In this document: positions 9,755-13,016 of the stretch, piece by piece
Layout of the letters: every line of letters starts with the position of its first letter
Position numbering within the stretch: position 1 is the first letter of the stretch
NCBI RefSeq assembly: GCF_002633015.1
Contig: NZ_NSIU01000014.1
Coordinates: 1-52,203, forward strand
Length of the DNA: 52,203 bases
Direction: 5' to 3'
DNA from: Sulfuricurvum sp. PD_MW2
GTDB lineage: Bacteria > Campylobacterota > Campylobacteria > Campylobacterales > Sulfurimonadaceae
The notes under the pieces: model-generated
The model's input: the letters and a program-made list of their open reading frames with translations, nothing else
Databases searched by the model: none
What the model was told of the DNA's origin: nothing
Made by a program: the position numbers and the translations under genes

Positions 9755-10396
9755 TTAGATTTTTAAACTTTCGATCGCAGCTTTATAGTCTTCTTGTCCA
9801 AAAACATAGCTTCCTGCAACACATACATCAACACCGGCGTCTTTGAGAAGTTGAATATTGGAGTTTCCGACACCACCGTCGATTTCAATCAGACAATTCG
9901 GATTAATGCGATCACGAAGTATTTTTAGGCGGCGAATTTTTTCAATAACAGTCGGGATGAATTTTTGTCCACCAAAACCAGGATTGACGGACATGACCAA
10001 AACCATGTCTACATCACCAAGAAGGTATTCAACCGCTTCCGCAGGAGTATGGGGGTTTAGAACAATACCGGGTTTTATCCCTAGCGATCGAATATAATGG
10101 ACAAGACGGTGAGGATGCTTTTCTTCTTCGATGTGAAAGGTGATGTATTCTGGTTTGAGCGGAGCGAAAAGATCAACAAAAAAAGTATTGTTTTGTACCA
10201 TAAGGTGTATATCCAGAGGCTTGGTAGCAGCACGTGCAATCGAACTTACGACAACCGGTCCGATAGTCAGATTAGGAACAAAGTGTCCATCCATAACGTC
10301 AACATGGACTAAATCGCATCCTGCGTCACAAATTGCACGAACATCGTGCGCTAAATTCCCAAAATCGGCGGAAAGGACGCTTGGAGCGACTAACAT
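9755..10396 (-). CDS. rpe: ribulose-phosphate 3-epimerase
   Basis: Interconverts ribulose 5-phosphate and xylulose 5-phosphate. 213-residue TIM barrel with HVDVMDGHFVPNLTIGP, MSVNPGFGGQKF and EIDGGVGNSN, which carry the metal-binding His/Asp residues. First gene of the rpe-trpF-exonuclease operon. Confidence 0.96.
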   Translation of the reverse strand: MLVAPSVLSADFGNLAHDVRAICDAGCDLVHVDVMDGHFVPNLTIGPVVVSSIARAATKPLDIHLMVQNNTFFVDLFAPLKPEYITFHIEEEKHPHRLVHYIRSLGIKPGIVLNPHTPAEAVEYLLGDVDMVLVMSVNPGFGGQKFIPTVIEKIRRLKILRDRINPNCLIEIDGGVGNSNIQLLKDAGVDVCVAGSYVFGQEDYKAAIESLKI

Positions 10397-10474: not shown

Positions 10475-11869
10475 TTACCGAGTTAGAAAAAAGGTAAAAT
10501 GACTTCCTTCAAAACTAAGATCAACTTGAACCCCTTTTTTATTTTGGGCCATTTCAAGTAACGAGTTAACATCAGAATAGGTACGCGGCAACGTAATATC
10601 GACGCGGTTCTTTTTCTCTCCCAAAATCGTTTTGGCACGCCCCCCGATAATATTAACAAACTCGGCCAACGAGTCAAGGATTGCTTCTTCATTCTCTGTT
10701 TCTTCGCCAATCAGTAATTCACACGCTTTTTTAGCAACCGTTTTTGGAAAGATTAAAATGATCATCCCATCCAAATCTCCATAAAAACCGATGGAACTGG
10801 CATACTGATTTTGGCTATCTTTGACTTCAAGCGTCTGTATGTTCATAGACTCTTTAGCCGCTTTTGCATTCGTCATCATAACCAGAGTTGATACGGTAGC
10901 ATCGATAAATCCGGGAAGTTCGTTAATAAGCCCTTTGGTAAGGGATCGAGTCTTTTTCGAAGCTGTGGCACTACTTCCGCCAAGCTCTTGAAGAAGCTCT
11001 TTATTTTTTAGAATATCTTCCATTTGATCGAAAAAGAGCATACCGGCATCTTCAAGATCATTTTTGAACGTGATAGGCGTTTTATCAAATGTCAATCCGA
11101 CAAAACAGATGGTGGCATTGTATTCTGCAGCGGATGAAGCGAGTTTCGTGAAGAAATTCAATGCATGTACGTTCATCGATACGACTTTATACGCATCGAA
11201 AATAAAAAGACGAAATCCGACGTTCAAAGAGTTGTTATGATAGGCGATATTGAAGGTATTTCCGATTTCCGCATCCAAGAAATTACCAATCGTATAAATA
11301 ATGGCATTCCCGGTTACACGTGTTGCTACTTTTTGACCGAATAATCCTAAATAGGTATCCTCGACAATCGCATAATAGAGATCAGGGTTTTGTTTTTTTT
11401 CTTCAAACTCTTTTTTGCTTTGGACGATAATGGGGTTGTGCCCATAATCAAACAGCTCAATCGCCATAGCCGAACGTTGAGACGGATCTTCATTATAAAG
11501 CAAAATAGTTTTTGGGTCACTTTTGTTTGTTGCGACAAAGAGTTCTGCAATTTTTTCGGTACGAAACAATGAGAAATTGAGATTACTGCCGTAAAAAATC
11601 TGAATAGTTTTGAATTTCGCGGAATCGTAATCACATAAACCGACCGCAATATGTTTTTGATTTCGCATATTAATCAACATACGGATAAAAACATCAAGAC
11701 CGTTTTTATTGAAAAAAATAACCTTTTTGAGCGATACCAAAAGCATATCGATGTTAAGCGATTCGGTTGCTCTGATATCGTCTATTGTTAAAAATGAAGG
11801 GGCGTTGTTTCCATCTAAAAACCCTTGCGGGTGGAAAACGGCGACTCGTCCTTTAACCGTTGCACGCAT
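10475..11869 (-). CDS. STAS / receiver-like / CheX-type fusion protein
   Basis: 464 residues without membrane segments. Residues 1-112 look like a STAS domain (VAVFHPQGFLDG; LLVSLKKVIFFNKNGLDVFIRM). Residues about 119-200 look like a degenerate receiver (TILLYNEDPSQRSAMAIELF). About 215-290 resembles a second STAS-like fold. The C-terminal region (about 315-464) resembles CheX/CheC phosphatases, with the ExxN catalytic pattern E403-F-V-N406 in LAEFVNIIGG. A role in chemotaxis or two-component phosphate control is inferred from this. The gene overlaps the HDOD gene by 17 bases, so the two form one unit. Domain calls other than CheX and the first STAS are tentative. Confidence 0.65.
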   Translation of the reverse strand: MRATVKGRVAVFHPQGFLDGNNAPSFLTIDDIRATESLNIDMLLVSLKKVIFFNKNGLDVFIRMLINMRNQKHIAVGLCDYDSAKFKTIQIFYGSNLNFSLFRTEKIAELFVATNKSDPKTILLYNEDPSQRSAMAIELFDYGHNPIIVQSKKEFEEKKQNPDLYYAIVEDTYLGLFGQKVATRVTGNAIIYTIGNFLDAEIGNTFNIAYHNNSLNVGFRLFIFDAYKVVSMNVHALNFFTKLASSAAEYNATICFVGLTFDKTPITFKNDLEDAGMLFFDQMEDILKNKELLQELGGSSATASKKTRSLTKGLINELPGFIDATVSTLVMMTNAKAAKESMNIQTLEVKDSQNQYASSIGFYGDLDGMIILIFPKTVAKKACELLIGEETENEEAILDSLAEFVNIIGGRAKTILGEKKNRVDITLPRTYSDVNSLLEMAQNKKGVQVDLSFEGSHFTFFLTR

Positions 11870-12662
11870 CGTACTCTACCACCTGCATAAAAGATTCATA
11901 AATATCTTGAACAAAATCAATTTTAAATTCGATAAACTCGTTCAAACCGGCACTCACATAGGTGCTTTGACTGAGTTCAAAAAAGAGAAGAAGATGCATC
12001 CATTGTGCTAGTACGTTCTCTGTAGGGTTTAGATTATGATCATTACCTGAGGATGCGTGCACAACGCGGCTAACTGTTTCAGGAAGTTCCCATTTTTTTG
12101 CTATTTCATTACAAATATCGAATAGGCTTAATTGGCATAATCGAAAAAGTATCGTATTGTAATCGAGCGATTTAACCGACTTTAACTGTTCTACTTCATG
12201 TTTATGAGTACCAAAGAGTGCGTCACAAACGATAATACTTGCAGGTAAAAGGGTAATGGCACTTTCGTTATCATGGTTGAGCAATCCAAGATGGGAGAGA
12301 ATTTTCGTCCATTTATTGCTTAGTGATGCTTGCAAATCATAAAATGCATGATGATCCAATTCAAAAAGATCCCATTTTTTTGGCACTAAAACACTCATAA
12401 GATAATTATAGAGAATCTGTTGAGCTGTCGAAACTCCTAAAATGCCGAATATCTGAGGCAGATCGGTAACTTCGTTCCGAAAGCCGTATACTGGGCGGTT
12501 CACTAGGGTTTTGAGATAGAGTTTGAGTGCAGGATCTTCTTCTGCACATTTTGCCGCTTTGGTTAAATCACCTGCTCTCGTAAAATCGAGAGTTTGTTTT
12601 ACTATTGAAGGAGCAGGGGGGATGTTTTGTATATAATGTACGATTTCATCTTTGGTCACCAC
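11853..12662 (-). CDS. HDOD-domain signalling protein
   Basis: 269 residues. The HDOD domain covers about 5-200: IQNIPPAPSIVKQTLDF, a region of AEEDPALKLYLKTLVNRPVY, and ILGVSTAQQILYN. HDOD is an HD-like fold that lacks nucleotide hydrolysis residues and is common in Campylobacterota signalling. In that phylum an HDOD protein has been linked to motility. The start is GTG at 12662 (a second GTG follows at once). The ribosome binding site is weak. It leads the two-gene unit with the STAS/CheX protein. Confidence 0.8.
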   Translation of the reverse strand: MVTKDEIVHYIQNIPPAPSIVKQTLDFTRAGDLTKAAKCAEEDPALKLYLKTLVNRPVYGFRNEVTDLPQIFGILGVSTAQQILYNYLMSVLVPKKWDLFELDHHAFYDLQASLSNKWTKILSHLGLLNHDNESAITLLPASIIVCDALFGTHKHEVEQLKSVKSLDYNTILFRLCQLSLFDICNEIAKKWELPETVSRVVHASSGNDHNLNPTENVLAQWMHLLLFFELSQSTYVSAGLNEFIEFKIDFVQDIYESFMQVVEYDACNG

Positions 12663-12827: not shown

Positions 12828-13016
12828 ATGGCAAGAAAATGTGCTATTAGCGGTAAAGGCCCAATGAGCGGGAACAACGTTTCTCACGCGAAAAACAGAA
12901 CTAAACGCCGTTTTTTACCTAACCTTCGTACTGTTCGTGTAACACTTGAAGACGGTACAACTAAAAAACTGAAAATTGCTGCTTCTGAGCTTCGTACTCT
13001 TAAAAAAGATTCGTAA
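12828..13016 (+). CDS. rpmB: 50S ribosomal protein L28
   Basis: 62 residues, basic, beginning [20 protein letters not shown] and containing [16 protein letters not shown]. This is the L28 signature and usual length. I start at the ATG at 12828 behind AAGGAG, not at the longer in-frame opening 111 bases upstream, whose residues are not L28-like. Monocistronic: promoter before it and hairpins after it. Confidence 0.97.

Follow-up and report, generated by a model that had tools for sequence, protein, structure and literature searches.

What does an HDOD protein do beside a CheX domain that does not stand alone? In Sulfuricurvum sp. PD_MW2, an HDOD gene overlaps the gene of a 464-residue fusion protein which ends in a CheX-type phosphatase. 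No che gene adjoins the pair in the host genome; the neighbours are housekeeping genes. The window analysed here is the whole stretch of 52,203 nucleotides of contig NZ_NSIU01000014.1 that contains the locus. The first-pass annotation described the pair as an unusual signalling unit and suggested that it is a new node of control connecting chemotaxis with a further signal network. We examine the domains, their spread across the order Campylobacterales, the relation of the pair to the flagellum and the state of the CheX active site.

Domains of the fusion protein and its partner

The overlap of 17 bases read by the first-pass annotation is confirmed by the ORF coordinates (Table 1). In relatives the starts of the two genes likewise overlap or abut, as locus comparison shows.

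Table 1. Features of the HDOD-fusion locus in the window
Feature	Position	Strand	Evidence
HDOD protein gene, 269 aa, GTG start	11853..12662	-	Pfam HDOD, AlphaFold2, Foldseek
STAS1 - half-receiver - STAS2 - CheX fusion gene, 464 aa	10475..11869	-	ORF, Pfam, AlphaFold2, structural alignment
HDOD/fusion gene overlap, 17 bases, stop codon included	11853..11869	-	ORF coordinates
STAS1 domain, residues ~1-114	11528..11869	-	Pfam STAS, homologue matches, hhalign
Half-receiver-like beta-alpha-beta-alpha-beta segment (at most half a receiver), residues ~118-180	11330..11518	-	Model, Response_reg in paralogue
STAS2 domain, residues ~181-296	10982..11329	-	VIA-align; Pfam STAS in homologue L109
CheX domain, residues ~312-464	10478..10936	-	Pfam CheX; T. 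maritima CheX alignment
ExxN active-site motif: E403 (10661-10663), N406 (10652-10654)	10652..10663	-	Sequence; homologue alignment
rpe (ribulose-phosphate 3-epimerase), conserved downstream neighbour, outside module	9755..10396	-	Synteny anchor, 28 genomes and locus maps
rpmB (ribosomal protein L28), conserved upstream neighbour, outside module	12828..13016	+	Synteny anchor; start taken at the internal ATG

The C-terminus of the fusion matches the Pfam CheX family (PF13690) at 8.5e-16, with 58.2 bits against a cut-off of 27. Residues 313-464 of the AlphaFold2 model superimpose on Thermotoga maritima CheX (1squ) with a Z of 18.5 and an rmsd of 2.4 over 147 residues, and on Borrelia CheX from the CheX-CheY complex with a Z of 18.3. 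Both residues of the ExxN pair, E403 and N406, are intact in the host, as first annotated. The CheY-P phosphatases of T. maritima and Borrelia burgdorferi thus share with the fusion the whole CheX fold (Z ~18) and the active-site pair. However, each CheX protein of known structure is a separate chain of ~155 aa, whereas the host domain forms the C-terminal third of a fusion which comes with an HDOD partner.

Two STAS domains precede CheX. For the first, the Pfam STAS match at the N-terminus (6.5e-4) lies slightly under the cut-off, and the same profile is matched by 22 of 26 fusion homologues (best 4.6e-9). For the second, residues 175-296 align with anti-sigma factor antagonists of the STAS family (SpoIIAA, TM1081) at a Z of ~13 (VIA-align), and the equivalent region of homologue L109 matches Pfam STAS at 3.2e-6. 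In addition, hhalign relates the two copies to one another with a probability of 95.5. The model of the whole fusion has a mean pLDDT of 80 and the expected domain order; since its pTM is 0.54, the relative placement of the domains is unsure. Structure prediction therefore recovers both the CheX and the STAS folds proposed in the first-pass annotation.

Its degenerate receiver fares less well. Residues ~118-180 adopt a beta-alpha-beta-alpha-beta arrangement in the predicted structure, which at ~60 residues is half a fold and falls short of a complete (beta-alpha)5 domain with a phospho-acceptor aspartate. The Pfam Response_reg match in paralogue L156 (E 0.008) is limited to profile positions 1-52 of 111, and comparison of the segment with whole-receiver profiles by hhalign gave no significant match. 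Furthermore, the aspartate at position 171 is not conserved and varies among 89 homologues. This part of the protein thus amounts to no more than half a receiver.

Anti-sigma antagonists and proteins of the stressosome (SpoIIAA, RsbR/RsbS) share the STAS fold with the fusion, which carries two copies of it. Unlike in those proteins, the phospho-site is occupied by Asn56 and His235 (correspondence to SpoIIAA by eye), so that neither domain has a Ser/Thr there, and no kinase or PP2C gene adjoins. A stressosome-style kinase switch is unlikely because of the missing Ser/Thr.

The partner protein matches Pfam HDOD (PF08668) at 2.9e-8, with 33.9 bits against a cut-off of 22.9. Its AlphaFold2 model is all-helical (pLDDT 89), and the top Foldseek matches of the model are solved HDOD proteins. 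Among characterised members of the family, Cj0248 of Campylobacter jejuni (PDB 1vqr) is linked to motility and matches the window HDOD weakly in sequence and fold. A second host HDOD gene, at L068:4979-5818, lies between uvrA-like and polA-like genes. Its product matches Cj0248 at 5e-31 versus 1e-4 for the window HDOD. The window HDOD was therefore rejected as the Cj0248 orthologue, and it belongs to a different subfamily.

Distribution and genetic pairing

The fusion is not peculiar to this genome but is part of an old, order-wide gene pair. It is matched in 49 of 60 relatives, and its profile finds matches in 123 of 220 genomes sampled across the order, although the weakest matches are to CheX proteins that stand alone. 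The fusion occurs in many families, usually with rpmB upstream of an HDOD-fusion-rpe-trpF-dnaQ-like run. In a phylum-level scan the listed matches all fell inside the same order, and plasmids gave no match to the fusion. The search for the same domain order, proposed as a check, returned the full-length architecture in tens of genomes, and such recurrence argues against a chance joining.

Conservation of the two genes together, also proposed as a check, is seen outside the genus, where the HDOD gene is present in 45 of 50 long-fusion genomes (one broken copy counted) and in none of 38 fusion-free genomes. It was never met without the fusion in the genomes examined. The five fusion-bearing genomes in which HDOD was not detected at the threshold used are G104, G115, G130, G086 and G099.

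Could the two genes simply be carried along, with no joint function, in a conserved housekeeping run with rpe, trpF and the dnaQ-like gene? The synteny with rpe is conserved in most families, as this explanation would require. However, rpe was detected in all 28 near-complete genomes tested, whether the pair was present or not. Moreover, families f13 and f16 retain both genes at separate loci, which argues for shared function over passive linkage. We regard mere co-transport as highly improbable.

Two loci show traces of disruption. In G127 (family f16) the fusion gene is split over three frames (L113:3042-4381) and the unlinked HDOD gene is intact; this reflects either real decay or an assembly error. 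In G022, the intact pair has next to it an incomplete second HDOD and a fragment from the first 60 residues of the fusion (L046:2883-4326), much as a past tandem duplication might leave behind.

In a maximum-likelihood tree, 63 sequences fall into a set of 52 with HDOD as the usual partner and a set of 11 without an HDOD neighbour, the details of the smaller set being unsure owing to long branches. This set includes a short form (~350 aa) which lacks STAS2. A very divergent fusion paralogue in G118 (L118:3763-5175) also has no HDOD neighbour and sits on a long branch.

Relation to the flagellum and CheA

The link to chemotaxis suggested by the first-pass annotation gains support, since the pair tracks the flagellar and chemosensory apparatus (FliM, CheA). 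Ordinary FliM is present in 106 of 125 genomes, and 84 of the 106 carry the long fusion, one of them as a broken copy. The long fusion occurs in none of nine genomes with divergent FliM and in one of ten without detected FliM, that is in 1 of 19 where FliM is absent or divergent, in a non-random sample of related genomes which are not phylogenetically independent. The single exception, G059, is an 88%-complete draft with a large CheA. Counting one state per genus, presence to absence of the fusion is 26:14 with ordinary FliM versus 1:11.

Both genes are missing together where there is no flagellum or a replaced one. In a 99%-complete Sulfuricurvum genome (G003), neither FliM, CheA nor the pair was found, and rpmB adjoins rpe. 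The same empty gap is seen in G185 and G239, which have no FliM, and in G209, whose FliM is divergent. The absence of the pair from another Sulfuricurvum (G008) was set aside: this 81%-complete draft also misses rpe, and the contig is probably missing.

Outside the genus, all long-fusion relatives examined have a CheA frame of at least 773 aa, the size expected of an F3 CheA with an extra receiver, F3 class being assigned here by frame size only. In G043, G044 and G053 the longest CheA frames span 613-689 aa, and no fusion is present. In G037, a FapA-like gene lies directly upstream of HDOD and fusion; it matches the N-terminal region of flagellar assembly protein A at 9e-23.

The dependence is not strict. 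Ordinary-FliM genomes without the pair include G083, G096, G042, G050 and G052, so that the pair is not required for flagella. As the fusion is missing from 22 of the 106 genomes with ordinary FliM, it would be an optional part of the flagellar system.

Gene order favours the flagellar link. According to passages of PMC9321776, F3 genes are scattered and have fixed, unrelated downstream neighbours (cheY-prmA, cheZ-trhP, cheX-fliNO). The HDOD-fusion-rpe arrangement fits this habit, and we count it in favour of an F3 accessory role. The stand-alone F3-class CheX of Campylobacterota described in these passages shares the CheX family with the fusion, and is likewise a scattered gene with a fixed neighbour; it follows the F3 flagellar system, as the fusion may also do. 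In contrast, it is a separate gene in the host (L068:9516-9941) and has no STAS part. Neither the fusion nor STAS nor HDOD is named in the main-text passages of PMC9321776, although the supplementary tables may list the fusion under some name. On the side of the partner, loss of an HDOD protein alters swimming in several bacteria, according to passages of PMC11004494.

Alternatively, the fusion could target a response regulator outside chemotaxis, for instance a c-di-GMP or transcription regulator, the flagellar link being indirect. The pair has no adjacent che gene, one host CheC is encoded together with a receiver and a GGDEF protein, and G054 has genes for a histidine kinase and a receiver close to the pair. 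These arrangements would suit such a target; however, the loss of the pair along with FliM and CheA does not, nor does the FapA-like gene next to it in G037, and we consider this reading distinctly unlikely. As no second network was identified, the proposed node joining chemotaxis to a further network is unsupported.

The host has further genes of this kind. The run at L070:10955-13272 comprises CheY, CheC and a PAS/GGDEF protein, which suggests a CheC-controlled receiver beside a diguanylate cyclase. At L069:9857-10784, a CheX-like gene overlaps a CheY-like receiver gene and forms a separate phosphatase-receiver pair.

Active site and proposed role

We propose, with a probability of roughly one half, that HDOD and fusion work together as a single accessory module in the flagellar chemosensory system of the ancestral (F3) class in Campylobacterales, in which CheX docks on a receiver and the STAS and HDOD domains act as a scaffold. 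The CheX domain would dock on a phosphorylated receiver, which could be that of CheY, CheV or CheA; the match of this domain to a CheX solved bound to CheY counts in favour of the proposal. In the host, where E403 and N406 are intact, docking would speed dephosphorylation of the receiver. The tandem STAS domains and HDOD might serve as a protein-binding scaffold which places or gates CheX, for example at the flagellar pole. We infer the physical contact between HDOD protein and fusion, the substrate, the direction of control and the location. Against the proposal, no che gene adjoins the pair, and the host already has a stand-alone F3-type cheX-fliN locus, a CheX-CheY pair and a CheC, which makes it less obvious why a further phosphatase would be needed.

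The active site varies across the family. Of 89 distinct homologues, 72 retain ExxN, among them all sampled Sulfuricurvum sequences, and the other 17 have lost it. The tree requires two losses, one in the long form of family f20 and one in f11; the replacements are ExxH or ExxY in f20 and of several kinds in f11. Most homologues without ExxN still have the HDOD gene adjacent, and some f20 genomes also encode a short HDOD-free paralogue whose ExxN is intact. Because the catalytic Asn was lost in two lineages and HDOD was usually kept, what stays constant in the family may be the binding of a receiver and not hydrolysis. Judged from these sequences, phosphatase activity may not define what the fusion does.

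The main rival to the accessory-module proposal takes this further: the conserved function would be non-catalytic, CheX binding a receiver or dimerising, and the pair would be a device for scaffolding or sequestration whose phosphatase is an ancestral extra kept in the host. The two losses, mostly with HDOD still adjacent, speak for it, as do the short ExxN-intact paralogues of f20, which look as if catalysis had moved there. However, most of the family keeps ExxN, and loss of the Asn may be simple decay in two lineages; we hold this rival to be unlikely. Within the accessory-module proposal, we tentatively suggest that CheX on its tandem-STAS scaffold, together with HDOD, controls receiver output partly without catalysis, and that pseudo-phosphatase versions arose twice.

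CheX-family phosphatases are known as a kind, while the fusion architecture, the HDOD partner and the broken-site versions are undescribed as far as our searches show. A text search of the main texts of open-licence papers returned none with both HDOD and CheX and none on the fusion. CheY phosphatases set the response speed of swimming bacteria, and the order includes important animal-associated and sulfur-cycling bacteria. Since the pair is widespread in the order and goes with the flagellum, yet does not appear in the papers searched, a well-studied system may have lacked this component in its descriptions. Lineages with a broken active site, of which there are two, allow a direct contrast between removing the phosphate and holding the receiver.
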